Below are positions 4,142 through 33,767 of a DNA stretch of 56,913 nucleotides, one piece after another. Positions within the stretch are counted from its first letter, which is position 1. Every line of letters begins with the position of its first letter. The DNA lies in contig CALUVJ010000002.1 of the NCBI GenBank assembly GCA_944324195.1, positions 1 through 56,913 on the forward strand, in the 5' to 3' direction. The notes beneath the pieces are model-generated. The model worked only from the letters and a program-made list of their open reading frames with translations. It was not told where the DNA came from and did not search any database. The translations under genes and the position numbers were made by a program. Origin of the DNA: Candidatus Gastranaerophilales bacterium (GTDB taxonomy: Bacteria; Cyanobacteriota; Vampirovibrionia; Gastranaerophilales; Gastranaerophilaceae).

Positions 4142-5209
4142 TTAAATCTGCTGGTTCTTATTTTTCAAACCGTATACAAATAACAGGATTTCTGCAACGG
4201 CTTTGTATAATTCCGGCGGAATTTCTTGATTTAAATCCACCATTCTAAAAAGAGCTCTTGCAACTGGTGCGTTATCAATTACCGGGACGTTATGCTGAAT
4301 GGCAATATCAATAATTTTTTTAGCAATAAGTTCTGTTCCTTTAGCCGTAAGTGTAGGTGATTGCATAGTCTCTGCATCATATTTAAGAGCACAAGCAACG
4401 TGGGTAGGGTTTCTGACTACAAAATCCGCTTCGGGAACGGAATCCATTGCACCCTGCTGCAGCATTTGCATACGCCTTTGCCTTAATGCTGCTTTGACGT
4501 GCGGGTCTCCTTCCGAGTTTTTATATTCGTCTTTTATTTCTTTAAAAGACATTTTCTGGTCTTTTAAAAATTTCCATTTTGTAACGCCGTAGTCAGCTGC
4601 TGCAATTATTAAGAAAGCAATACACGCTTTGTAAATAAATTCAACAATTAATTTCCCGAATTCAATCATTACAGCAAAGTTGTTATCTATTGATGCAAGC
4701 ATAAGAATGCTTTCAAGGTGGTCTCTGTATACGCTCCAACCTACCAGTCCGAGGATTGTAACCTTTAAGATGTTTTTACCGAGTTCAAATAATGTTTTTA
4801 CCTGAAACAAGTTTTTAAAATATTTTGTAGGATTAAGTTTATCCAACTTCGGAACTAACGGCGCGGTTGCGACAAGCGGACCGACTTGAATGAAATCCCC
4901 AATTATGGAGACAAAAGCTGCAACAATTAATATTGAACCGATTATTGCAACAGTCGGAATTAAAGTAACAGTCAATATGTATGGATATCCGATATTTGAC
5001 AGATGCTGATTGGGAATTTGTTCATATAAAGCTCCAAACAGCCCTACAATGAGTTTCCATATAATTGGAGCCAGCATATTGATAAATGTGAACATTACCA
5101 ACAAAGACAGTGCTACCGACACGTCTTTTGATTTAACAACCTGCCCTTCTTTTCTTGCTCTTTCTAATTTCTGGGGCGTGGCATCAAATTGTTTATCTTC
5201 ATCACCCAT
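4142..5209 (-). CDS. flhB: Flagellar export switch protein FlhB
   Basis: Inner-membrane component of the flagellar type III export gate that switches substrate specificity from hook to filament. Full length at 355 aa. Seen: N-terminal DATPQKLERARKEGQV, four hydrophobic membrane spans over residues 30-220, then a cytoplasmic domain with the autocleavage motif NPTH at residues 267-270. Cleavage falls between the Asn and Pro of this motif in the family. The position matches the E. coli protein to within two residues. It probably forms an operon with the downstream sigma gene. The presence of flagellins and fliI in the window makes an injectisome homologue unlikely. Confidence 0.95.
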   Translation of the reverse strand: MGDEDKQFDATPQKLERARKEGQVVKSKDVSVALSLLVMFTFINMLAPIIWKLIVGLFGALYEQIPNQHLSNIGYPYILTVTLIPTVAIIGSILIVAAFVSIIGDFIQVGPLVATAPLVPKLDKLNPTKYFKNLFQVKTLFELGKNILKVTILGLVGWSVYRDHLESILMLASIDNNFAVMIEFGKLIVEFIYKACIAFLIIAAADYGVTKWKFLKDQKMSFKEIKDEYKNSEGDPHVKAALRQRRMQMLQQGAMDSVPEADFVVRNPTHVACALKYDAETMQSPTLTAKGTELIAKKIIDIAIQHNVPVIDNAPVARALFRMVDLNQEIPPELYKAVAEILLFVYGLKNKNQQI

Positions 5210-5828: not shown

Positions 5829-6983
5829 ATGATTCAACCAATAATGCCAACAATGCACAGATACAAGAATTACAATATGACTTTTAAAAATTCAACTACA
5901 TCTGCGCCTTCAGCATCGAACGCGCTTCCTGCGGAAAAATCAGATTTGATGTTGTATTTGGAGTCAAAGGAAAAAAATGAAAAACAAAATCAGATTTTAT
6001 TGAGCGGATTGTCTCTGTTGTTAACAGCAGGGACTTTAGCTTTTTTATACACTCATAACAAAAAGAGTGCAAAAGTTCCAAAAGGAAAGATTGAAGAAAT
6101 AAGCGGGTTTAAATCATTGAAAAATGATGTCGAAATTCCGACACTGGAGACCTGCAACAGTATAAACCGCAAATTGAAAGAATTTTTACAAAATCAGGTG
6201 GATTTTGCAAAAGCAAAACCGGAAGATATAGCACACGCGGGAAATCCTAATGATGCAAAAAGGCTTCTTTTATACGGCGCTCCGGGCTCCGGTAAATCTT
6301 TCTTCGCTAAAGTCTATGCAAAAACCCTTGATGCCGAATACAAAGAAGTTAAATACTCCGATTTAAACTCAGTATGGGCGGGCGAACATCTTGATAATAT
6401 AAAAAAATGTTTTGAAGATGTTATAACCACCGCTCAAAAAGATAAAAACAAAAAGTACGTTGTAGTCCTGAATGAAATCGATTCTATGGTGCTTCCGGTA
6501 GAAAGAGTCGCCAGAGGGGACGGCGGTCATTCCGCATTTAAGGTCGAAGAACGCTCTGTGTTTTTGAATTATCTGGATGAAGTTGCGCACGAAGCTCCTA
6601 ACGTAACAATTATCGGCACAACGAATGTTTCTCCGAAAAACAGGGGACTTGACGGTGCCGCAATGAGCCGTTTTAAGAATATAATGGAGGTTTCTTATCC
6701 TGACAAAAAATGCTTGAATGAAGCTTTAAATGAACACCTGCTTGCAATGGGGGAAGGTAAAGAGTTTATTGACGCAAACAAGGATAAGCTTGAAGATTTC
6801 GCAGCCAGATTGGAAAAGAGAGGATGTTCTTACAGGGATTTAAACAATATTGCAAATACTTCTAAGAGTTATTACTTAAAAGATTATGTCAATGACAAAA
6901 ATACCAAGTTTACAATAGAATATTTGGAAAAAGCTCAGAAAGCCATTGATGCAACAGACGGTGAAATTGCCGGAGCGGTTTAA
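5829..6983 (+). CDS. Membrane-anchored AAA+ ATPase with N-terminal FKN motif
   Basis: A 384-aa AAA+ ATPase. Seen: Walker A GAPGSGKS with Lys156, Walker B VVVLNEIDS with Glu216, sensor-1-like IIGTTNVS and an arginine-finger-like MSRFKN. A single hydrophobic helix (about residues 55-75) precedes the ATPase domain, so it is probably membrane-anchored with the ATPase in the cytoplasm, as in the FtsH/spastin type. No protease domain is present. The N terminus contains MTFKN (17-21), a member of the recurring motif described in the findings. GGAGG lies 5 bases before the ATG. A 237-base AT-rich leader region precedes it and a small glycine-rich protein follows. Substrate unknown. Confidence 0.85.
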   Translation: MIQPIMPTMHRYKNYNMTFKNSTTSAPSASNALPAEKSDLMLYLESKEKNEKQNQILLSGLSLLLTAGTLAFLYTHNKKSAKVPKGKIEEISGFKSLKNDVEIPTLETCNSINRKLKEFLQNQVDFAKAKPEDIAHAGNPNDAKRLLLYGAPGSGKSFFAKVYAKTLDAEYKEVKYSDLNSVWAGEHLDNIKKCFEDVITTAQKDKNKKYVVVLNEIDSMVLPVERVARGDGGHSAFKVEERSVFLNYLDEVAHEAPNVTIIGTTNVSPKNRGLDGAAMSRFKNIMEVSYPDKKCLNEALNEHLLAMGEGKEFIDANKDKLEDFAARLEKRGCSYRDLNNIANTSKSYYLKDYVNDKNTKFTIEYLEKAQKAIDATDGEIAGAV

Positions 6984-12834: not shown

Positions 12835-14181
12835 ATGGAAGGTGTTGATCAGGAATTTATAGATAACCTGAAAACTCGGGTGAGCGATAAAATTGAGAAC
12901 CTTGAACTGTATCAGTACAAAGGCAGTGTATCTAAGCTTGTCGGATTAACGGTCGAAGTAAAGCTTCCCGGCCTAAAAATCGGCGATTTATGCTATATCG
13001 AGGCTGCTAACGGCGAAAAGAAGCCGGCAGAAGTTGTTGCGTTTAAAGGTGATGCGGCTCAATTGCTTTTGCTGTATGACGGTACAGGAATCGGGCAAGG
13101 AAGTCTTGTTACAACAACCGGTAAGCCTATTATAATTCCGGTTGGAGATTTTCTTCTCGGGCGTCTGATTAATCCGATGGGCGATCCGATAGATGGAAAG
13201 CCTATGGATATTGAAGGTGCACTTTGGCGTCCCGTCGAAGGGCCGCCGCCGGGGCCGTTTGAGAGACCTATTATAACAGAAATGTTTTCAACAGGGGTAA
13301 GGGCCATAGATTCATGTTTGACATTTGGCTGCGGACAGCGTATGGGATTGTTTGCCGGCTCCGGTGTCGGTAAAAGTACTTTGCTCGGCATGATTGCAAG
13401 GAATTCGGATGCAGATGTTAACGTTGTTGCACTAATCGGAGAACGTGGAAGAGAGGTTAAGGAATTCGTCGAGGACGCTTTAGGCCCTGAGGGCATGAAA
13501 AAATCCGTTCTCGTCTGTTCAACAGGTGATCAACCTCCTTTAATCAGACAAAAATGCCTTTTAACGGCAACTGCGGTATGTGAATATTTTAGAGACCAAG
13601 GGAAAAAAGTTTTCTTAATGACAGACACCGTAACCCGTTGTGCAATGGCAGGACGTGAAGTCGGACTTTCAATCGGAGAACCGCCTACTATGAAAGGGTA
13701 TCCTCCTTCAATCTTCTCTTGGCTTCAAAAGGTTCTTGAACGTGCGGGAAATAGTCAAAAAGGTTCAATTACCGCTTTTTACACAGTACTTATGGAGGGT
13801 GATGATATTAATGACCCTATTGTAGATACAGTTCGCGGTATTACGGACGGACACATATTTTTGTCAAGAAAGGTTGCGGAATCCAATCATTATCCTGCTA
13901 TTGATATTTTAGGAAGTATTTCAAGGCTTATGTCGGCAATTGCCAGCCAGCCGCATAAAGAGGCAGCTGCAAAACTCAGAAAAATTATGTCAATGTACCG
14001 TGAAAACAAAGATTTGATTGATGTCGGAATGTATCAGCGCGGAACAAATCCAAAGTTGGATATTGCAATTGATATGATGCCGAAAATTAATGCATTTTTG
14101 CAGCAGAGGACTACTGACAGTGTAAGTATGCAAAACACTATAGATACCCTTATAAATATGATGTCCGGTGTAGATGTGTAA
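12835..14181 (+). CDS. fliI: Flagellar export ATPase FliI
   Basis: Hexameric ATPase that energises the flagellar type III export apparatus. 448 aa, full length. Seen: P-loop GSGVGKST, the Walker B segment KVFLMTDTVTR, and a GERGREVKEF block shared with F1-beta. The REVGLSIGEPPTMKGYPPSIF stretch is typical of FliI/YscN. The start lacks a Shine-Dalgarno site but has an extended -10 seven bases upstream, consistent with leaderless translation. No fliH or fliJ neighbours are seen, so flagellar genes are scattered in this genome. Confidence 0.95.
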   Translation: MEGVDQEFIDNLKTRVSDKIENLELYQYKGSVSKLVGLTVEVKLPGLKIGDLCYIEAANGEKKPAEVVAFKGDAAQLLLLYDGTGIGQGSLVTTTGKPIIIPVGDFLLGRLINPMGDPIDGKPMDIEGALWRPVEGPPPGPFERPIITEMFSTGVRAIDSCLTFGCGQRMGLFAGSGVGKSTLLGMIARNSDADVNVVALIGERGREVKEFVEDALGPEGMKKSVLVCSTGDQPPLIRQKCLLTATAVCEYFRDQGKKVFLMTDTVTRCAMAGREVGLSIGEPPTMKGYPPSIFSWLQKVLERAGNSQKGSITAFYTVLMEGDDINDPIVDTVRGITDGHIFLSRKVAESNHYPAIDILGSISRLMSAIASQPHKEAAAKLRKIMSMYRENKDLIDVGMYQRGTNPKLDIAIDMMPKINAFLQQRTTDSVSMQNTIDTLINMMSGVDV

Positions 14182-14375: not shown

Positions 14376-17300
14376 GTGTTTGTAAATAAAATTAACGGTG
14401 TATCTAATATTGGATTCAAGGCTTATCAGCATGTTAAAAATGATGTCGGCGAAACAGTTATGAGGTTTAATTACCCTTATGACTATGAAAAGGAAAGCTG
14501 TGAGATACAGATATTCAGTGCAAAGCCGAATGAAAAATACAATTATCAACTTTCTGAAAAACCTGTTGCCGTTATTTATCTGAAACCGGAAGGGGTTAAT
14601 GTTAACCTGCAAGAAATTACAAACCTTGATAGAGATGAAGCTTTTGCATATAAAGTGGTAAGAAAAGATAAATCTACCGGAAAAGTTATTTGGGAAGGTG
14701 CTGATACCGGTATGAAAATAAAAAATGAAAACGGAGAATATGTTTTCAGAGTAATGAGCGGGCAGGGTATCAAAGAAGTAACCGATAGTGACGGAAAAGT
14801 TACTCATGAAGAGGATTTCAACGATTCCGTTAACAATTATCAATATACTCTTGTATCAAGAAAAGGTACAACACCGATGGTTCAAGGAGCCGGGTATTTG
14901 ATTACCCCGGATTCATTGATGCCGGGTGCAAAATTTAAAGATTTTAATGACGCAAGAACCGGCGGAATATATTATGACAAAGATTTTCAAAAAGAAATGG
15001 AAGGTGTAATAAAGAATTTTTCTAATGTTCATGGAGGCAGCATCGCAGGTGCCCAGAAAATTATACCTTACCTGAAAGAAAACGGTTACAAATATGTTTT
15101 CTCAACTCCAATGGCAAATGGTTCAAAAGCGTGGTCATTGGGTTACTGGAACAAAAATAATATGCAGGTTTCCCCAAATATAGGAAATACTGAAAACTTT
15201 GCTTCTTATTTCCGTGAATTGTACAAAAACGGCTTAAAATACGTTTACGACGGAACATTTACTTCAGAAGGTCTGGAAGGAATTCACTTCCAGTATGCTT
15301 TAAGATGGGCTCAGAGAAATCCTCAAACATATTACTGGTTTAGAATGACAGGTTTGAAAAATTCTAATCTGGGTTTAGGCACTGTTCCAAAGAATAAAGA
15401 AAACTTACGTCACAGAATTGTAAATGCACCATATAATTATGAGCTTCAGGCGGACGGTACTTACAAAAAGGTGGCAAACCCTCGTTATAATTCTCAAAAA
15501 GAAACTTTATTCCAGATTTATGATGCATCTCAGGCAAGTGACAGACAAATTCAAGATTTAGATAATGCTATTATTAATTATGAAAAGCTAACTGAAGGTA
15601 AAGCTCTGGATATTAACAATCATGACGATACGATTATTAACTTTATTTTCCAGATTAATCCAAAAGAATACGATAACAGGATTAAAGTTATAAATGAGCT
15701 TAATAAAAAATTCGGCAAGAATATAAATCTGGATACTGCAGACGGAACAATAATGGCAGCTCAATTTTCGAATTTCAAAATAGATAAGAAAAATGAGGGC
15801 GGTTTTGTAACTTGGGATGCAAACACGGATATGGCCAAAATGAATTATCATATTTCCGGCTATGATGAAAAAATTCTGCAGTCGATTGTAAGTCATTCTC
15901 AGAGAGAATACGAGAGAATGCTGACTGAACGCGGTTCAAAAGAGGTTCAGGATATGACTGTTCAAGCAGGCAAATATTGGACAGGAAAAGTTAAAAATAT
16001 ACAAACGATGTATACGGCTAAAACCATAGGTACAGCTAAGTCTGTTGAAGCAATTGAGAATCTCATTAAAGACGGGAAATTGCCGGAAGAAGCACGATTA
16101 GACAGCGCAACTTTAACAAATATTATTAACGGACACTATCTTTTGAAACCTAAGGGGGTTCTTGCAAAGGATGATGTCACTATCAAAGCATTGATGAATT
16201 TACCGCTGGATACTCTTGAGTTGGGTGAAAATACGGTTGGGGTCCTTTCTACTTCTTATTTCTCAAATAGAGCAACAACGGATGATACAATTGGCGTATC
16301 AAGGTTTGATTTGATGAAACAAAACAATCCTCACCTTGTAGAACCTTATACAAAAATTTATAACAAGGTAAACAGTCTGTTTAATAATGAACTTAAAGAC
16401 TTTGCAGATGCTGTAATTAAGAAAGCAAATGAAACTGCCAATGAAAAACTTTTAGATAATTCCGGTGATTATACGGAATACGGCGAATATGTAATGGAAC
16501 TCGTCGGACAGGATATTGCAAAATATGCTTTCTTAAAGGCACTGGGCGGTGAAAGTTTTAAAACAAAAATTTTGCCTTCCGGCGAAATGACATATGATTA
16601 CGCTGCCTTAAGAGACGGCACAACATTAAAAGGTCTGGGCATAAATGGTTACAGTCCGGAAGATGAAGCTTCCAAGCTTGAAAAGAAAATGGAAAAGGGG
16701 TTAGCATCACTTTCAGAGAGCGACATTGCTTACGTAGCAGAATCAGTTTCCCAAAGAATTGCCGGAACGGATACTTCAAGTTTCAGAATTGCAGAAGCTC
16801 TTGTTGATAGAACCGGCTTAGGTCTGGATTGGAGACTGGATGCGGCAAAAGATGTTATGGATATGGATGCGGTTCGTAATGAAGATGATGCTTTTGATGA
16901 CAATTGGGATGATGCAATAAAATTCTGGGCAAGATTTGTTCAGGCAGTTAAATCTGAAAACCCGAATGCATATGTAGTTGCTGAAATTACAGATATTCCG
17001 GATTTAATGGCAGATACTTACGGGCTGGACTCTTGTCCTTATGATGGTTTAACAAATATTGGGCAAAAATTTAACGGTGAACCGGATGCGTTTGCAAAAT
17101 TCTTTAATGAAACCGGTATAACCTCGGAAGCAGGATATTCATATTTCTTTACAGATTTGTTAACAAACTTTGCTCCGTCTTTTGATGAAGGCAATGGTTT
17201 GAGTGAAAGCCATGACAGATACGTTCCTCGATTTGAGCTCTTGATGCAGACAAGAAGTGCAGATTATTTGAGAAATTTGTATACTTTTATGGGAAACCAC

Positions 17301-19214
17301 GATAAACCGAGAACGCTTCACGGACTTGCCGTAGATATGGAATTATTCCATTCTAATCTTTTGAATGATTACAAAGATTTCTCTCAAAACCATAAATACA
17401 GACAGGATGCAATAAGAGTTCTTTCAGGTGCTAAGTCTGATGCGGATATTCCTATAGAACTCAGGTTAAATGTTGACAATAACAACTACTTTTTAACAGT
17501 AAGCCCGAGAGCAATTGCAAACGGTAAGCTTTTGATTCCTGTAATTTATGAAGATAAAACACTTTCTGATGAAGATAAAAAATCTCTCGTTGATGCAATT
17601 ATAGATTTAACATACGGCAATTATCTCGGTGAGGGTGCAACAGAGAATATGCAAAAAATCAGAATCAAAGAAATTTCATCACTTAACAATGCTTTTGATG
17701 AAGTTCTTTACCTTGCTGAAAATAACGGTTTGAAGCTTTCAGCAGATGAAAAAGCAAAGTTAAAAGAAGCTGTTGTAAAGCAAGCAAATGCAGCGGATTT
17801 GTCCGGTTACCTTGTTCATGGTGATTTTGACTGGCAGGATATTCCGGCAAACATTAAAAGCAAAAATGAAAAAGCTGCAGCGGAAATTGTCGGAAATCAA
17901 CCGAATTATTCCGGCTATAGTCTGTATATAATCCAGCTTGCACGACTTTTGAAAGATTCTTATGAAAAAACCGGGCTTAATGTAAGTGCAAAAGAACAAT
18001 TAGATAAAGCATTCAAAGATTTTGCGGAAAAATATAATAAAGATACTATAGTTTCTCATACAGAAGATTTTAATAAAATTGAAGATCCAGTAACTGCTAT
18101 GAGAAAGAACGGTTATGCTGCAAGAGATTTAAAAGTTGCTATTGATATGGCATTTAAGCAGGCAGAGTACAAGTCAGGTAAAACAATTGCCAATAAGAAA
18201 GATTCAATAGACAGACTTTATCAAAGCGCTACGGAACCGGCAGTCGCAAAAGAAGCAATGCTTATGGAATTTTTGAAAGCTCTTCCGGGTATTCCGACTG
18301 TTTATTCAGGTGATGAGTTTGGTATGACCGGTTATGAAGAAAAAGCTAAAAACGTTTATTTACAAAACAGAAATGTTTTGCCTTGGACAGAATTAGATGA
18401 AGATTCAGTAATCGGGAATTACAGAAGAGCGGTAAGAGATGCAATAAACGGAACGTTAAAAGACAGATCTAATCCTGAACTTTCGCCATTGAATAACGGT
18501 ACGCCTTATCCTCTGGAGGTTGCGGCAAATTCTAAAACAAGAAGTGAAATAAAATATAGAATAAATCAGATTAATGGTGAATTCGGAGAAATTGATAAAA
18601 AACAAGGCGATGGACAAATTACTAAACAAGAAGCTGACAAGCAAAAATCAGCTTTAAGTGAAGAGCGCAGAAAACTCACTAAGGACCTTGCAAAATATGC
18701 TTATCTTATGCAGAATGCCAACGGTGACGTAACGATTTCTATTATGAATGCAGGTGATGTTAATTTCTCTAACAGATTTAATTACTTCAAAGAATACGGT
18801 CTTGATACTGAAGAAAAGCGCAAAAAGTTCATGCAAGAAAATAACATAGAATCCATAAATCCGGACAATCCGTATGTTCCGATTTTACCAAAATCAGAGC
18901 TGGATATGATATTATTAGGAGCAGGGATTGCGCTTCCGGTCGGAACGGTATTTATGAATGCCAATGCTAAAGATAAGACTGAATATGTTGTAAAAGAAGT
19001 CGGAAGCAAGAAAGCAATCGTAAGAAAAGATGGCGGCAAAATTGTAATGGATGGTATGACTGCGAAAAACGGTGTTATGATATTGAAGAAGATTAAGAAT
19101 ATAATATTTAAGGGGCATCAGAATAAATATTCTCAATATAATTTTGTGTCAAATCCTTACAAGCACAGTGAGCCGGCAGTAGAGGGACAAAATTTGTCCA
19201 TAATTTCAAAATAA
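14376..19214 (+). CDS. Giant GH13 (alpha-amylase family) glycosidase
   Basis: A 1612-aa protein with a GH13 catalytic core. Start is GTG, with AAGGAG 9 bases upstream. Seen: N-terminal FKA motif (residues 12-16, IGFKA), a beta-rich amylase N-domain, nucleophile Asp822 in LDWRLDAAKD, acid/base Glu870 in VVAEITD, transition-state Asp976 in GNHDKPR, and GIPTVYSGDEFG at 1305. About 270 extra, mostly helical, residues lie between Asp976 and that motif, and some 800 residues precede the nucleophile. A hydrophobic segment (about 1510-1528) and a second motif, IIFKG, occur near the C terminus. No signal peptide, so an intracellular or membrane-attached alpha-glucan enzyme is inferred. The next gene, an AAA+ ATPase, begins 16 bases later. 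It could be a glucan hydrolase or a transferase. Confidence 0.88.
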   Translation: MFVNKINGVSNIGFKAYQHVKNDVGETVMRFNYPYDYEKESCEIQIFSAKPNEKYNYQLSEKPVAVIYLKPEGVNVNLQEITNLDRDEAFAYKVVRKDKSTGKVIWEGADTGMKIKNENGEYVFRVMSGQGIKEVTDSDGKVTHEEDFNDSVNNYQYTLVSRKGTTPMVQGAGYLITPDSLMPGAKFKDFNDARTGGIYYDKDFQKEMEGVIKNFSNVHGGSIAGAQKIIPYLKENGYKYVFSTPMANGSKAWSLGYWNKNNMQVSPNIGNTENFASYFRELYKNGLKYVYDGTFTSEGLEGIHFQYALRWAQRNPQTYYWFRMTGLKNSNLGLGTVPKNKENLRHRIVNAPYNYELQADGTYKKVANPRYNSQKETLFQIYDASQASDRQIQDLDNAIINYEKLTEGKALDINNHDDTIINFIFQINPKEYDNRIKVINELNKKFGKNINLDTADGTIMAAQFSNFKIDKKNEGGFVTWDANTDMAKMNYHISGYDEKILQSIVSHSQREYERMLTERGSKEVQDMTVQAGKYWTGKVKNIQTMYTAKTIGTAKSVEAIENLIKDGKLPEEARLDSATLTNIINGHYLLKPKGVLAKDDVTIKALMNLPLDTLELGENTVGVLSTSYFSNRATTDDTIGVSRFDLMKQNNPHLVEPYTKIYNKVNSLFNNELKDFADAVIKKANETANEKLLDNSGDYTEYGEYVMELVGQDIAKYAFLKALGGESFKTKILPSGEMTYDYAALRDGTTLKGLGINGYSPEDEASKLEKKMEKGLASLSESDIAYVAESVSQRIAGTDTSSFRIAEALVDRTGLGLDWRLDAAKDVMDMDAVRNEDDAFDDNWDDAIKFWARFVQAVKSENPNAYVVAEITDIPDLMADTYGLDSCPYDGLTNIGQKFNGEPDAFAKFFNETGITSEAGYSYFFTDLLTNFAPSFDEGNGLSESHDRYVPRFELLMQTRSADYLRNLYTFMGNHDKPRTLHGLAVDMELFHSNLLNDYKDFSQNHKYRQDAIRVLSGAKSDADIPIELRLNVDNNNYFLTVSPRAIANGKLLIPVIYEDKTLSDEDKKSLVDAIIDLTYGNYLGEGATENMQKIRIKEISSLNNAFDEVLYLAENNGLKLSADEKAKLKEAVVKQANAADLSGYLVHGDFDWQDIPANIKSKNEKAAAEIVGNQPNYSGYSLYIIQLARLLKDSYEKTGLNVSAKEQLDKAFKDFAEKYNKDTIVSHTEDFNKIEDPVTAMRKNGYAARDLKVAIDMAFKQAEYKSGKTIANKKDSIDRLYQSATEPAVAKEAMLMEFLKALPGIPTVYSGDEFGMTGYEEKAKNVYLQNRNVLPWTELDEDSVIGNYRRAVRDAINGTLKDRSNPELSPLNNGTPYPLEVAANSKTRSEIKYRINQINGEFGEIDKKQGDGQITKQEADKQKSALSEERRKLTKDLAKYAYLMQNANGDVTISIMNAGDVNFSNRFNYFKEYGLDTEEKRKKFMQENNIESINPDNPYVPILPKSELDMILLGAGIALPVGTVFMNANAKDKTEYVVKEVGSKKAIVRKDGGKIVMDGMTAKNGVMILKKIKNIIFKGHQNKYSQYNFVSNPYKHSEPAVEGQNLSIISK

Positions 19215-19230: not shown

Positions 19231-20691
19231 ATGAGAGTCGGTGCAGTAGGTATAAACTGCGGTTATTATAGTAAAAGCCGGAATATAAAACAGTATAGAA
19301 ATAATTTGATAAACAAAACTGATACAGTGTCTTTTAGGGGGCTATTCAGTTCCGGGCCGGATTTGTCAACACGGTTTGCATATGGGCTGGAAGCATTGGA
19401 CGGACAATCTGTTCTGGTTGTAACCTCCAATGAAGAAAGTTCTAATATGATGCTTGAACTTTATGCGGATAAAATTGACATTCCGGTGATGAAAAAATAT
19501 ACTCTGCTTGTAAAGCCGGGAGAGTTGAAAAACCGCGACGATTTGAGTGCAAATTTTGCTATATTTAAAAAAGATAAAGATTATAATATTCTCTCTCTTG
19601 CGGATAATCCTATCATAGGAATACAAGTTGCAAATCCAAAAGACGAATTTAATGAAAAAAACCGGATTTTTTCCGGAGAGAAAAAAGTTCTAATAGACGG
19701 TGTTGCTATAGATACAGGTGAATTATTTTATTCGGAAAAACCAAAGTTTGTATTTAATACTCCGAAAAATTACTATGCAGATAGTGCAAAAAGATATTTG
19801 ACCCTAAATACCGTAAATGAGTTTAAGGACTTCAACAAAAGAACGATTTCAGCTCTGAACTCTTCTAAGAAAGTTGAGCCCAAAACAGGATTTAGATTTA
19901 GTGATATTGGCGGTTTGGATAGTGTAATAGAGACCCTGAAAAAATATGTAGTAAGACCTATTAATTATCCGCAGGTGTTTGAAAATATAAGATTAAATAA
20001 GGGGATTCTTTTGTGGGGGCCGCCGAGGTGCGGGAAAACTCTTCTTGGTAAAGCTTTAGCTAATGAAACCGGAGCAAAATACAGCGAATATAATGCAAAT
20101 GAATTTAAATCATCAACGCTCGGCTCTTCAGAAGCTTCTATACGTGAGATGTTTAAAAAAGCTGTTGCGAACGCTCCTTCGATAACATTTATTGATGAAA
20201 TTGATTCTATTGCAAAGAAGCGTGACGGCTCTTCCAATTCCAGATTTGATGATCCGATGGTGAACCAGCTTTTGGGCTGCATGAGCGATTTAGAAAAAAC
20301 TAAAACTCCGGCATTTATTATTGCAGCCACAAACAGAAAGGATTTACTGGATCCGGCTCTTGTTGCTTCCGGAAGATTCGGCTTGCATCTGGAAGTCCCT
20401 ATACCTGATGAGAAAGGGTTAAAACAAATTTTCAATATACATATAAAAGACAAGCCGGTTATGCAAAATGTATCAGTAGATGAACTTACGAGGATGATGT
20501 CGTTGCACAAATTTAACGGCTCTGATGTCGCAGAGGCAATCACAAATGCTTATTTTAACGCGCTTGAACGATTGAGCATGTTTGAAAAGATGGATAACAG
20601 AACCTTTACTTATGCTGATTTACAAAAAATTGCAATCAGTAAAGAGGATTTTCACTTAGCAATGCAAAAAATCGTCAGACAGAAGATTTAA
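19231..20691 (+). CDS. AAA+ ATPase (Cdc48/FtsH-like) with VSFRG motif
   Basis: A 486-aa AAA+ ATPase. The N-terminal 210 residues form a domain I do not recognise, with VSFRG at 33-37. The ATPase domain follows: Walker A GPPRCGKT (263-270, Lys269), Walker B ITFIDEIDS, sensor FIIAATNR, and SGRFGLHLEV with an arginine finger, all close to the Cdc48/PAN/FtsH group. The usual Walker A Gly-Thr is replaced by Arg-Cys, which is unusual but keeps GK[ST]. No transmembrane span or protease domain. Begins 16 bases after the giant GH13 gene, so likely the same transcript. Overlaps ldpA tail to tail by 17 bases. Confidence 0.85.
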   Translation: MRVGAVGINCGYYSKSRNIKQYRNNLINKTDTVSFRGLFSSGPDLSTRFAYGLEALDGQSVLVVTSNEESSNMMLELYADKIDIPVMKKYTLLVKPGELKNRDDLSANFAIFKKDKDYNILSLADNPIIGIQVANPKDEFNEKNRIFSGEKKVLIDGVAIDTGELFYSEKPKFVFNTPKNYYADSAKRYLTLNTVNEFKDFNKRTISALNSSKKVEPKTGFRFSDIGGLDSVIETLKKYVVRPINYPQVFENIRLNKGILLWGPPRCGKTLLGKALANETGAKYSEYNANEFKSSTLGSSEASIREMFKKAVANAPSITFIDEIDSIAKKRDGSSNSRFDDPMVNQLLGCMSDLEKTKTPAFIIAATNRKDLLDPALVASGRFGLHLEVPIPDEKGLKQIFNIHIKDKPVMQNVSVDELTRMMSLHKFNGSDVAEAITNAYFNALERLSMFEKMDNRTFTYADLQKIAISKEDFHLAMQKIVRQKI

Positions 20692-28194: not shown

Positions 28195-28197
28195 ATG

Positions 28198-28224
28198 AAA
28201 AAGGACTATATTAGTCCTTTTTTC
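28198..28224 (+). terminator. dfx-ftnA terminator
   Basis: AAAAAGGACTA and TAGTCCTTTTT form a near-perfect hairpin with a 3-base loop and T-run. Confidence 0.9.
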
Positions 28225-28371
28225 TTGTATTATTTTTTTGTTTTTGATAAATTAATTGTGTGTGTTTTATATTTCTAAAACATTGTAAATAAATGTAAAG
28301 TTCATGCTTTTTTAATAGCAAAAAATATTTTTTTAGGAACTTTTAATATATAGGTACCAGATGGGGTTCGT

Positions 28372-29451
28372 ATGATTAAAGCAGTTAGTTCAGCAGATAA
28401 AAATGTAATGTTTGGGGCTAAGTCCGAAAAGGAGAATAATTTCGAGATGGAATCTCGAATATTGCCAAATACATTAAAAACAAGGCTGCAGCAAAAATAT
28501 CAAAAAACAACAAATGCTTTTTTGCAATATCCTGTAAAAGGTTTAAAGGGAGATGTAAATTCCGATTTTTATGAATTTTTATCTATGGGAATTATACCGT
28601 ATGTAATCGGAAGCGGTATGTTCATGGGCTTGTTTAATCTTGTAAACAAACATCTTTCAAACCCTAAATCAAGGGTTCTGGCCGGCATAAACGGGAAAAA
28701 AATGGCTCTTGGGGTTGTATTATACGGTTTAATGAAAACCCTGTCTCCAGATTTGGTTACCCGCCCGGTATACTGGGGGACGGGCGTTGATATTGAACTT
28801 CCGATAGAACACGTATACTATCCGCTTCCTAAAGAACCGGGTGAATCTGCCAGAATTATACCGCAGGTTCAGCAGAGAAAAGTTTACGACAGCAGAGAGT
28901 TCTTCAGAAAAGATTTGATACAAAAAGATATCGGCGTTTCTTATTATGACAATGTTGCAAAAAAACTGGGACTGGGTGAGGATTTAAATGACTCAGTAAC
29001 AGAAACGACACCGATTATCCAAAACATTGTTTCCACGACAAAAACTGCCAAAAGCTTGTCATCTTATGCTTGGGCAGGCTTAGGTGTCGGATTGGCTGCT
29101 CAGGATTGTTGGGAAGATTTCTTCACATCAATTACAAATAGAAAACGCCATATAGCAAAACCAGGAGAAGGTTTTGGAACTAAAATGGCTTCAAGAATGA
29201 AAAACTTTGGTACAAATACCGCAGAAATTTCTAAAACATTCCTGAAATCATTTGGTAAATCCTTTAAAACTTTGTGGACCGGTGATCCCGGTAAATCAGG
29301 ATTTATGAAGCATGCCGGTAAAGCTTGGATGCTCTTTACGGCAGCGCTGACGGTAGGTACAACAGCTAATGTAATATACAAAGCAAGACATATGGGAAAA
29401 TTGGCAAATAAAGACATTATGGATAAGTCCAAAGAAAGTACGGTGATTTAG
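28372..29451 (+). CDS. Unknown membrane protein with VMFGA motif
   Basis: A 359-aa protein I do not recognise. Possible membrane helices at about residues 68-88, 103-117 and 322-342, with a basic central region and a negatively charged linker. The N terminus carries VMFGA at 12-16, a variant of the recurring motif without Lys. It is followed after one base by the 856-aa gene, so translation is probably coupled. No Shine-Dalgarno is clear. It shows no signal peptide; it may be an integral membrane scaffold, but that is only inference. Confidence 0.65.
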   Translation: MIKAVSSADKNVMFGAKSEKENNFEMESRILPNTLKTRLQQKYQKTTNAFLQYPVKGLKGDVNSDFYEFLSMGIIPYVIGSGMFMGLFNLVNKHLSNPKSRVLAGINGKKMALGVVLYGLMKTLSPDLVTRPVYWGTGVDIELPIEHVYYPLPKEPGESARIIPQVQQRKVYDSREFFRKDLIQKDIGVSYYDNVAKKLGLGEDLNDSVTETTPIIQNIVSTTKTAKSLSSYAWAGLGVGLAAQDCWEDFFTSITNRKRHIAKPGEGFGTKMASRMKNFGTNTAEISKTFLKSFGKSFKTLWTGDPGKSGFMKHAGKAWMLFTAALTVGTTANVIYKARHMGKLANKDIMDKSKESTVI

Positions 29452-29452
29452 T

Positions 29453-32023
29453 ATGGCTATAACTCCTATACAATCTAATATCGAAAATACTAAGTCTCAC
29501 CATAAACCTTATAAGGATGCAAAAGGTGAAGTAAAAACTACTAACAATGCAAAGCCGCTGGCACCGGAAGGGCATCTTGTTCATGATTCAATTGTGACTA
29601 TTCCAAAATACTTTATAAAAGACAGAGCGTATGATATTAATGCCGTAAAAGACGGGTTAAAAGGGAATGCCAATGACCATCAACTCGGCAGAATTAATGA
29701 TGTAGGCCTTGTAGTAGGCGGTTTGGGTATTGCAACCATGCTTGCCGCACGAACAAAAAATCCGATGCTTCGTATAATGGAATATACGGGACTGGGTGCT
29801 TTCATCGCATCTATGTCTTTATTCCCTCTGTTAGCAATCAAGGCTCCTTCAAGAATTATTCAAGGTTTTGATGTAGGCAAAGAGTATATTGATGATCAGG
29901 GACGTAAAAAATCTGTTCTGCAAGATCCTAATTATATTCCGTTTGATATGTATCAAGGAGATTATCCGGGTGAAGATTTAGATGTTATCGGCGATAGAAT
30001 GGGAATTCCAAGAGGTATCAAAAACCGTCACGACTTAATCAAAGAACAAATGAGAAAAGTAGGGATTCAGACAAATACTCTCTGGATGCTTATGGCAGGC
30101 GGTGCAACACCTGTACTTGCAGCTTTAATGTGCTGCGGACTTGAAAAACTTATTGCACCGGCTCTCGAAAAGGCAAGAAATTCCCGTTATAACTCTAAAA
30201 TAAGTAATCTGCTCGACAAAACAAACGGAATGTCTGAACTTGCGTCTGATGTAAAGCCAAATAAACTTAGCAAAGATGTAGAAAAAATTCTTGTCAATTA
30301 TAAAGGAAAAGAGCTTCCGCAAGTAGAATATGACAATTTATTAAAGTTGTTAACGAAAGATATGGACGCAAATGCCGCGGAAGGTATTCGTGCCGATTTT
30401 GCATCAATATTTAAAAGAACAGGTAAAGGCGAGTACGCTATTAATGATGATTTTGCAGATGATGTAGTAAAATCAATAAAGGCAACTATTCCGTCAAGAA
30501 ACAGGGCAACTTTAGAAAGAGTTTTTGTTCCGACTACTGCAGAGATAAATGACATTCTTAAAAATATTAATGCGGACGGTATAACTGATGATGAGTTAAA
30601 GACTTTTAAAGACGAGTTGAAAAAACTTTTTGCAGGTAAAATTGAAAATGAAACCGGCATGCCTAAAGATGCATTAAAGGCTTATCAAAATCAGGTTATT
30701 GATAATATAACCGCCAAAATCAAAAAATCTCCGGCAAAATATGTTGATGAGAATAATATCAAAGAGGTTACAGATTTTGCAAAGGTTTTAGGTGAATTTA
30801 AAGAAAATCAAAAGGCTTTAGATAAGTGTAAGTCTTTCAAAGTGGAATATGCGCCTGAAACAGTTATTGCACGCTCCTACAGCAAGTTTGAAAATACGCT
30901 TTTGGATGTGTTAGGTATTAAATATAAAGATTTGAAACAAATAAGAGAATCTGACAAATATGCTGTTGAAATTGTAGAAAGACAACTCAATGATTTAACG
31001 AAAAATGAAGCAAAATATCAGGAAGCAATTTCTAAACTCGCAAAAGTTATGTCAGAGATGGAAATCGACTTGAATGGTAAAGATACGGAAAAATCTCACC
31101 TGAAAGATTTAATCTCAGGTATAGAAAACAATTACAATAAAACCGCAAAACGACTTCATTCAATCGGTAAATTTAATAATACAATTGACAGGCTTGTAAA
31201 GGAAGATGTCACAACACTTTCAAATTCTCTAAGTTCAAGAGAAGATTTGTTTGATGTTTTGGATGGTGTTCAGCAAAATAAATATGAGAAACTGGACTAC
31301 TGGAGCGGCTTGAAATCAACAAAAGAACGTATAGATTATGCAAAACATAATTCCAGAGGGGTAGGTTCTTCTAAAAATCAGGAAATTTCAAGAATTGTAG
31401 AAAGATATCAAGGTGCTAAGAACTCCTTCAACAGAATTTTGCACCTATTTGATACTTACAAACGTCCGCTTCCGGAAGGTGAATACGCCAGAGAAGTCGC
31501 AAAGTTTGGCAGAGAAGCAATTATGGGCGCTTCTTGTCCGGATCATACGATGAAACTTAATACTCCTAATAATCCGGAGTTTTATAAGGACGTAATGAGA
31601 AATACTTGGAACAGTGAAGCTATTACTGAAGGTACAAAGAAAGGTTTGAGCGTTTCAAGTGATTTGGCAACCGGTGATGTGTCCGGAAGATTCTCTAAAT
31701 ATATAACAAGATTTAGAGATATTATGGGTAATAATAATATTGATTTTACGAAACCGCAGCATAAATTAAATCCAGCAGATTTGAATAAATATACAAAATC
31801 AGCTAAAACCAGAATGGCAAAGTTTAATCTTGTTGCACAAAGCTCAGTAGATTTGATAATGCAGGCCGCACAAAGAAGATACGGAAACCAAAAATGGTTA
31901 AGAATAGCTTCTGCAATCGGGGGCAGCGTAATAGGTGCAACAATAGTATCACAATTCGGATTTGGTAAGATAAGAAATCCGCAAAATATCTTTAGGAAGG
32001 TGAGCGATGATGGAAATAAGTAA
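29453..32023 (+). CDS. Unknown large membrane/coiled-coil protein
   Basis: An 856-aa protein of unknown function. Hydrophobic helices occur at about residues 82-98, 108-128 and 208-232, and a terminal one at about 828-846. The middle 550 residues are charged and helical, rich in Lys/Glu, consistent with coiled coil. The start ATG lies one base after the preceding stop and its end overlaps the GH13 gene by 17 bases. This makes a three-gene unit: membrane protein, large membrane/coiled-coil protein, GlgE-like glycosidase. It lacks the FKG motif at its N terminus (MAITPIQSNIENTKSHH). Confidence 0.65.
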   Translation: MAITPIQSNIENTKSHHKPYKDAKGEVKTTNNAKPLAPEGHLVHDSIVTIPKYFIKDRAYDINAVKDGLKGNANDHQLGRINDVGLVVGGLGIATMLAARTKNPMLRIMEYTGLGAFIASMSLFPLLAIKAPSRIIQGFDVGKEYIDDQGRKKSVLQDPNYIPFDMYQGDYPGEDLDVIGDRMGIPRGIKNRHDLIKEQMRKVGIQTNTLWMLMAGGATPVLAALMCCGLEKLIAPALEKARNSRYNSKISNLLDKTNGMSELASDVKPNKLSKDVEKILVNYKGKELPQVEYDNLLKLLTKDMDANAAEGIRADFASIFKRTGKGEYAINDDFADDVVKSIKATIPSRNRATLERVFVPTTAEINDILKNINADGITDDELKTFKDELKKLFAGKIENETGMPKDALKAYQNQVIDNITAKIKKSPAKYVDENNIKEVTDFAKVLGEFKENQKALDKCKSFKVEYAPETVIARSYSKFENTLLDVLGIKYKDLKQIRESDKYAVEIVERQLNDLTKNEAKYQEAISKLAKVMSEMEIDLNGKDTEKSHLKDLISGIENNYNKTAKRLHSIGKFNNTIDRLVKEDVTTLSNSLSSREDLFDVLDGVQQNKYEKLDYWSGLKSTKERIDYAKHNSRGVGSSKNQEISRIVERYQGAKNSFNRILHLFDTYKRPLPEGEYAREVAKFGREAIMGASCPDHTMKLNTPNNPEFYKDVMRNTWNSEAITEGTKKGLSVSSDLATGDVSGRFSKYITRFRDIMGNNNIDFTKPQHKLNPADLNKYTKSAKTRMAKFNLVAQSSVDLIMQAAQRRYGNQKWLRIASAIGGSVIGATIVSQFGFGKIRNPQNIFRKVSDDGNK

Positions 32024-33767
32024 AATAATACCTGTTAATTTTAAAGCACCGGCGCAGAATGCTTCTGTTACAACTCCTTCTGATAAAAGAATAGAAAACA
32101 GGGAAAGCTGTGTTACTTCTGCTTACCTTGAAAATCTTGCAAGGATTAATGTTCCTCAGGTAAAAAAGGTTGACTTAGCTTCTAAAGAGGTAAAACCATA
32201 TAAAAACAATTTGAGAACAATGATTCGTAACAATCAATCCGTAATGCTTGCAATTGTTCCAAGAACATTTACCGCTCAGGATTTGAATGGTGATGACAAA
32301 GTAACTTTGTCTACCGGAGAAAAAAACGGGACTTTGCTGAGCGCAATATCCAGATTAGATGAATTAAAAGCAGATGGCATAAATACAATTCATATTTTAC
32401 CTATTCATCCTACCGGCAAGAAAAATGCTATGGGAACAGCTGGTTCAATTTATTCTCCTGCAAAGTATGTAACAGAGGACGGGCATTTGGCTATTGATCC
32501 TATGCTTATTGATAAAAATGATCCGCGAACTCCGGACGAACAATTTAAGGCACTGATAGATGAATGTCACAAACGCGGAATCAGAGTAATGTTAGACTTG
32601 CCGAGCTGCGCATCTGTAGATATGTTTGAAGCTGAACCTGAATTGATGGCTTACGGTAGAAACGGGGAAGACAAGACGCCGCAAGGCTGGGCTGATATCA
32701 GAATGTTTGAGCCTTGGGCTGATGAAGCTGACAGAACCCTGAATCCAAAATTATTAGAAATGCATAAACAATACGTTGATGCCTGTATAGATTTGGGTAT
32801 TGACGGTATAAGAGCTGATGTGGCAAGAGCGAAACCGCCTGAATTCTGGGATATTCTAATAAAACATTCTCATAAGCGCGACCCTGAATTTGGCTGGCTG
32901 GCAGAAAGCTATACATATGAATGTGCTTCGCCAATGGTCAATATGCCTTACGACAGGCCGGAGGATTTGCTAAAAGCAGGATTTGACGAATATTACGGAC
33001 AATATCATATATTCCATGACTGGAAAAATGCCGCCGAATTTAATGATTATATAAAATTAAATTTGGATATGTCTCACAGGTTGCCTGCAGGAAAGAGCGT
33101 AATAGGTTCATTCCTTACACATGATGACAGCTCTTCAATGATACACGGAGGTGAGAATTTCTGTAAATTAACGACTATTCTTCAAGCAACAATACCTATG
33201 TGTAATCCTTATTTTATTGACGGTTTCCAAACCGGAGACTATTATGATTACAAATACAGAAATACAGATAATATTGAAACTTATACCGGTAAAACTCTGA
33301 TGAACGAACATCGCTACCGTTTAGCACTGTTTAACTTATCGAGAAAACCCGGCGGTGAACATCCTGATATTGAACGCGTTATGAGAGGCGTTCTAAAAAT
33401 GAGAAGTGAAAATCTTGATGTTTTGGCAGACAGAAACAGTAGTTTCATAGAGTTTGATAAACGTGGAGATAAAAATAATCAGATAATTACATATGCAAGG
33501 CATAACAACGGAAGAACTATTCTTGTTGTAGCAAACAAAAATCCTAACAGAAATGTAACAGGTATCATAGAAATTCCGGGTTTAAAAGAAGAACAAAAAT
33601 TAAAAAATATGGTTCCTGAATATGGTGATACCAGCGAATTTCAAGTTTCTAAAAACGAATTAAAGGTAAATCTGGCTCCTGCTGATGCTTACGTGTTTGA
33701 AATTGATACTCCTAATATCGAGAAAGACAGAAAAGGACACGTATATAAACAAAAAGCCCAAGACTAA
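32007..33767 (+). CDS. GH13 glycosidase/transferase, GlgE-like
   Basis: A 586-aa GH13 enzyme. Seen: VNFKA at residues 10-14, nucleophile Asp271 in GIRADVARAKPPEFWD, acid/base Glu300 in WLAESY, and Asp373 in FLTHDDSSS. Spacings of 29 and 73 match canonical GH13. The block GFDEYYGQYHIFHDWKNAAEF and the region-I-like LDLPSCASVD recall GlgE (maltosyltransferase), but HDD keeps the standard third carboxylate. No signal peptide, so intracellular alpha-glucan metabolism is inferred. Start at 32007 or the adjacent ATG at 32010 (AGGAAGG upstream). Overlaps the preceding gene by 17 bases. Confidence 0.85.
   Translation: MMEISKIIPVNFKAPAQNASVTTPSDKRIENRESCVTSAYLENLARINVPQVKKVDLASKEVKPYKNNLRTMIRNNQSVMLAIVPRTFTAQDLNGDDKVTLSTGEKNGTLLSAISRLDELKADGINTIHILPIHPTGKKNAMGTAGSIYSPAKYVTEDGHLAIDPMLIDKNDPRTPDEQFKALIDECHKRGIRVMLDLPSCASVDMFEAEPELMAYGRNGEDKTPQGWADIRMFEPWADEADRTLNPKLLEMHKQYVDACIDLGIDGIRADVARAKPPEFWDILIKHSHKRDPEFGWLAESYTYECASPMVNMPYDRPEDLLKAGFDEYYGQYHIFHDWKNAAEFNDYIKLNLDMSHRLPAGKSVIGSFLTHDDSSSMIHGGENFCKLTTILQATIPMCNPYFIDGFQTGDYYDYKYRNTDNIETYTGKTLMNEHRYRLALFNLSRKPGGEHPDIERVMRGVLKMRSENLDVLADRNSSFIEFDKRGDKNNQIITYARHNNGRTILVVANKNPNRNVTGIIEIPGLKEEQKLKNMVPEYGDTSEFQVSKNELKVNLAPADAYVFEIDTPNIEKDRKGHVYKQKAQD

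Follow-up and report, generated by a model that had tools for sequence, protein, structure and literature searches.

Intracellular glucan enzymes are usually regarded as soluble, and we know of no membrane partners for the maltosyltransferase of Thermotoga maritima (1GJU), a GH13 enzyme without the histidine of conserved region I. That histidine has also been lost in GlgE (GH13_3), for which the available text of PMC4526890 gives N352, K355, Y357 and N395 as the phosphate ligands for maltose 1-phosphate. The maltogenic amylases of Thermotoga neapolitana (4GKL) and Lactiplantibacillus plantarum (3DHU) are both GH13_48 according to PMC11239784, and the accessible part of that paper also describes the role of Asp135, a residue preceding conserved region V. 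Here we describe a three-gene unit in which a GH13 enzyme is encoded next to two membrane-type proteins; a literature search, covering sources other than subscription papers and CAZy, did not find the trio described.

The unit lies within a window of 56,913 nucleotides (the whole stretch of DNA that was analysed) from a Candidatus Gastranaerophilales genome, G000 in our sample, with 115 contigs, 1.84 Mb and 84.5% completeness. All on the + strand, its genes are g1 (28372..29451, 359 aa), g2 (29453..32023, 856 aa) and g3 (32007..33767, 586 aa); a single base (29452) separates the first two, and the last two overlap by 17 bases (32007-32023). Coordinates, lengths and spacing all confirm the three-gene unit of an earlier note on this DNA, which had read g1 and g2 as membrane proteins, g3 as a GlgE-like GH13 enzyme and the three together as a glucan-handling complex. 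A pattern scan placed a two-way terminator-like hairpin between the upstream ferritin gene and the unit (28197..28223) and a promoter-like site ahead of g1 (28244..28273, + strand, 10/12 matches), promoter-like sites being no more numerous in this region than in shuffles.

The GH13 identity of g3 holds: Pfam PF00128 is matched at 26.6 bits (cut-off 22), and the catalytic triad is intact, with the nucleophile Asp271 (32817..32819) and the acid/base Glu300 (32904..32906) kept in 33/33 aligned homologues and the transition-state Asp373 (33123..33125) in 32/33. Judged by its sequence, g3 is a member of the GH13 alpha-amylase family. Among solved structures its profile ranks 4GKL first (95.0 bits), followed by 1GJU (74.6), 3DHU (62.7) and GlgE (<=56.8), and the GH13_48 maltogenic amylases appear nearest to it. 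Besides the triad, g3 has in common with them the equivalent of Asp135, kept as Asp230 in 33/33 homologues, whereas the equivalent of their His103 (conserved region I) is Cys201 in 21/21 sequences from within the taxonomic order; outside the order this position is Cys in 8/12 and His in 0/12. Also unlike 4GKL and 3DHU, g3 has the linked partners g1 and g2, and its N-terminal end is either long and disordered or joined in one frame to a membrane-type protein. The missing region-I His recalls the Thermotoga maritima maltosyltransferase, although identity to that enzyme is low.

With GlgE, g3 shares the GH13 barrel, the lost region-I His and the equivalent of Asp359, and GlgE chains are matched by its profile at E about 1e-14. 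However, the counterparts of N352, K355, Y357 and N395 in the g3 profile are K, Q, W and V (0/4 conserved), and those of K264/N268 are L/G, the chain numbering of 3ZSS having been offset by 20 so as to agree with Asp394 and Glu423; W228 and V272 of g3 are invariant or nearly so among the aligned homologues. The sequence before the barrel is far shorter in g3, the match starting at residue 107 as against 229-250 in GlgE chains. A search for maltokinase (PF18085), which covers the TreS-Pep2 route to the donor and had Corynebacterium as positive control, returned 0/19 genomes; GlgM is the other route to maltose 1-phosphate. With the phosphate site absent and no maltokinase found in these genomes, we rejected membership of g3 in GlgE, and what is left of the GlgE-like label is a distant GH13 kinship, behind that to the maltogenic amylases and the Thermotoga enzyme.

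g1 and g2 are paralogues, homologous to each other over their N-terminal part (the N-terminal half of g1; hhalign 97.4%, E 1.5e-11, 179 columns), and their families are homologous to each other only. In alignment-wide averages, the hydrophobic segments have their peaks near residues 78, about 118-120, 234 and 327 in g1 and near 90, 120, 221 and 828 in g2. Because these peaks correspond, the two alignments suggest a shared four-segment plan, expanded in g2 by an insert of ~580 aa (residues 233-812, 30149..31888, + strand), helical and not hydrophobic, between the third and fourth segments; homologues from the other order have a much shorter one. Homology between the fourth segments of g1 and g2 is not significant (hhalign 25%), and cross-hits between them occur in two proteins from the other order (L234, L241). 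The claim that both are membrane proteins is kept in a weaker form than the earlier note implied, since each has four hydrophobic segments but of marginal hydrophobicity (median best 19-residue Kyte-Doolittle means 0.9-1.7). Most segments are basic on both flanks, and the charges give no clear positive-inside topology. AlphaFold2 models of g1 and g2 are helical with disordered N-termini (pLDDT 78.3 and 84.3). Neither protein has a credible family match in Pfam, NCBIfam or PHROG, and when 63 g1 and 57 g2 members were scanned against Pfam, the hits were scattered and pointed to no consistent family. Fold searches against the PDB likewise returned no usable match for g1 and g2 (best Foldseek E 0.074 and 0.047, none < 0.001; best VIA Z 5.8 and 7.9).

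A g3 match was found in 51/57 related genomes, and the gene order g1-g2-g3 is kept in 36/40 loci fetched around these matches; three of the remaining four are cut by contig ends (L040, L048, L075) and one is reordered (L049). In that single exception, the sole reordered unit seen, the genes run g3-g1-g2 and are still adjacent, so that the refuting outcome named in the earlier note, separation of the genes in close relatives, did not come about. All three genes stand in order in 71/79 g1-anchored loci from the genome collection, a set that has some genomes in common with the first; the other eight stop before g3 (L087, L101, L112, L119, L123, L135, L141, L144). The spacing recurs across the collection loci, with a median g1-g2 gap of 1 base (71 pairs) and a g2-g3 overlap in 52/69 pairs (median -17), which argues that it is not due to chance. 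Split g3 genes, each giving two matches, were seen in L053, G008:C60 and G033:C6 and possibly reflect frameshifts or assembly errors.

Within the class, 205/289 genomes match the g2 profile, and 13 of these, from families f9 and f15, do not belong to the order. Twelve of these 13 were sampled (G133 was left out), and in 12/12 (13 loci) g3 adjoins g2 and g1 lies ahead of g2; at L246 the contig start cuts g3. Among 38 genomes checked for both genes, a strong g3 accompanies g2 in 12/12, and of the 26 without g2 only G306 has a strong g3 match, within a 520-aa frame. Six genomes inside the order (G034, G040, G042, G045, G050 and G051, from f2, f3 and f4) have neither g2 nor a strong g3, and the unit is therefore dispensable. 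Outside the class, a phylum sample of 292 genomes gave one weak g2 match (G412, E 2e-6), which we take as chance.

In three genomes, G057, G069 and G081 (locus C26), g2 and g3 form a single open frame of 1030, 1082 and 986 aa, respectively, lengths that depend on the chosen start codon; G057 is a single-contig genome. Since all three belong to family f9, the fusions may represent a single event in one lineage. The GH13 part of the fused frames starts within some tens of residues past the last hydrophobic segment; unfused neighbours have a long N-terminus rich in Pro, Tyr and Gln, and this is gone. The fusion is the strongest evidence for g2 and g3 acting as one machine. G081 also has a second, unfused g3 copy (L237:6599-8227) whose third catalytic motif looks altered.

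The reading that we favour, and consider somewhat probable, is that of a complex for alpha-glucan remodelling, intracellular, tethered to the membrane and confined to Vampirovibrionia. In it, g1 and g2 would be a duplicated membrane-associated pair forming a hetero-oligomeric platform, with the long helical insert of g2 as an arm or spacer, and g3 would be an active retaining GH13 docked on this platform at the cytoplasmic side via its disordered N-terminus. The fused frames show it covalently joined to the end of g2 in some relatives, with that N-terminus lost. Most likely, g3 would cut or transfer maltosyl or maltodextrin units on glycogen or imported maltodextrin. Conserved linkage in two orders and the fusions bear out well the earlier proposal of a complex that handles glucan and has membrane-type partners. 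Weighing against the favoured reading are the marginal hydrophobicity and unclear charge pattern of g1 and g2, the weak match of their fourth segments, the possible single origin of the fusions, the six genomes of the order that have no unit and the sub-threshold GT5 match of G000 (see below). The reading would offer, for the first time, a function open to test for two protein families that most of the sampled class genomes encode; these gut bacteria, relatives of cyanobacteria, form a lineage about whose biology very little is known. If true, a membrane platform with an enzyme fused to it would be a new way of organising alpha-glucan metabolism.

Operon linkage alone never proves binding, and g1 and g2 match no known fold, so that the three genes might merely be co-regulated, g3 being a free cytosolic amylase while g1 and g2 do other membrane work such as shaping or transport. 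Against such an arrangement stand the single g2-g3 frames of three genomes and the presence of g3 beside g2 in every genome examined outside the order, and we regard it as unlikely.

Regarding location, a second GH13 of the genus, ~40% identical to g3, has a Sec-type N-terminus in 20/20 sequences read (20 loci were fetched, of which L261 had no complete hit, and L180 was added). g3 of the window has no Sec signal peptide, and a crude Sec rule, which only counts hydrophobic residues, is passed by 7/69 g3, 0/78 g1 and 0/71 g2 homologues. Since the Sec-type signal sits on the paralogue while g3 mostly fails the same rule, g3 is probably intracellular, and tethered at the membrane; an ordinary secreted amylase was rejected on the same grounds. 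In another set, the rule-passing g3 N-termini of L061, L063 and L066 show an F-R-A segment and not a signal core. Alpha-glucan is itself likely to be found inside the cell, since most relatives match the GT5 glycogen-synthase family (E < 1e-50 in 15/19) and the phosphorylase family (17/19), a combination that would fit ordinary intracellular glycogen. In G000, about 84% complete, the GT5 match is sub-threshold only. Starch or glycogen use was inferred by Soo et al. 2014 (PMC4040986) and likewise by Di Rienzi et al. 2013 (PMC3787301), this unit going unmentioned in the available portions of both papers.

The FKG-type motifs reported earlier for g1 and g3 are present, as F-G-A at residues 14-16 of g1 (28411..28419, + strand) and F-K-A at residues 12-14 of g3 (32040..32048, + strand). 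A strict F[KRGS][GAS] near the N-terminus was found in 38/78 g1 and 37/69 g3 homologues, but values of up to 0.46 occur in some of the control windows of g3, and the N-terminal motif is for this reason only moderately supported. Of 351 ORFs, 11 carry the strict motif, the average in 500 shuffles being 3.7 (sd 1.8, maximum 12), and two other motif forms fall inside the shuffle range (17 vs 11.8; 9 vs 6.0). The idea that an F-K-G tag stands out strongly across the genome, only ~3-fold enriched over shuffles as it is, was thus not upheld, and a literature search on an N-terminal tag of this kind found nothing relevant. Within the window, similar N-termini occur on a 1612-aa GH13 protein (14376) and on two AAA ATPases (5829, 19231); elsewhere they are seen on AAA proteins at L158:5629 and L171:17516 and, at L180:15379, on a GlgB-like GH13/CBM48 enzyme.

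Such N-termini could instead be signals for the flagellar-type type III export gates of these genomes, through which the whole trio would be exported, g1 and g2 inserting late into the membrane and g3 working outside the cell as an amylase. FlhA (PF00771) is indeed present in 56/57 relatives, mostly in two full-length copies, and families f8 and f13 are without both the trio and full-length FlhA; the disordered N-termini of the g1 and g2 models, their weakly hydrophobic segments and the absent Sec signal are also compatible with export. On the other hand, genomes of f10 and f14 have FlhA without the trio, the tag is enriched only about threefold, and g3, where fused, lacks a separate N-terminus. 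Because AAA ATPases and the GlgB-like enzyme, which require the cytosol, bear similar N-termini, our estimate of type III export was lowered to a rather improbable explanation.

The same N-termini allow us to speculate about an undescribed membrane-bound glucan body, in which the g1/g2 platform would receive g3, the 1612-aa GH13, the GlgB-like enzyme and the AAA ATPases, all addressed there by the shared F-[KRGS]-[GAS] motif. We know of no counterpart to an intracellular zip code of this kind, and hold this extension of the membrane-tethered complex to be quite doubtful. As for g3 extending a glucan from maltose 1-phosphate at the membrane in the manner of GlgE, the profile match to GlgE chains and the lost region-I His (Cys201), as in GlgE and the Thermotoga maltosyltransferase, speak for it, but with none of the phosphate-ligand or K264/N268 equivalents kept and maltokinase found in none of the 19 genomes it is very improbable.

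The 1612-aa GH13 protein (14376..19214, + strand) is a probable partner of the membrane-tethered complex. Its homologues lie beside the trio, in divergent orientation, in 7/13 loci of the other order (BLAST E 5e-12 to 7e-26), thereby linking to the unit a second GH13 whose C-terminal part has a hydrophobic segment. Its catalytic regions are spread out, with Asp near 817, Glu near 868 and NHD near 973, the hydrophobic C-terminal segment is near residue 1518 and the N-terminus is tag-like; a FliI/SctN-type ATPase gene lies directly before it and an AAA ATPase gene after.

The AAA ATPases are of the CDC48/proteasome type (5829-6983 and 19231-20691; L158:5629-7146; L171:17516-18688), with S/N-rich N-termini ending in F-[KR]-[GASN], and to our knowledge such a number of them is unusual for a bacterium. 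Two full-length FlhA genes sit in separate clusters (L177, L178), and FlhB-type genes are seen in L177 and in the window; judging from these genes, together with 4142-5209 and 12835-14181 of the window, two type III export gates are possibly present. A 492-aa protein at L179:204-1682 (G000:C108) has the C-terminal, cytosolic part of FlhA only (FHIPEP 321-655) behind an unrelated N-terminus, and many of the 57 genomes show a similar partial match. The window also holds three flagellin-type genes (2391, 40599 and 53745), the last with a large insert, and at L159:755-19156 (G000:C4) there is an open frame of 6133 aa, whose N-terminus resembles, by eye, that of a FliD-like flagellar cap protein.
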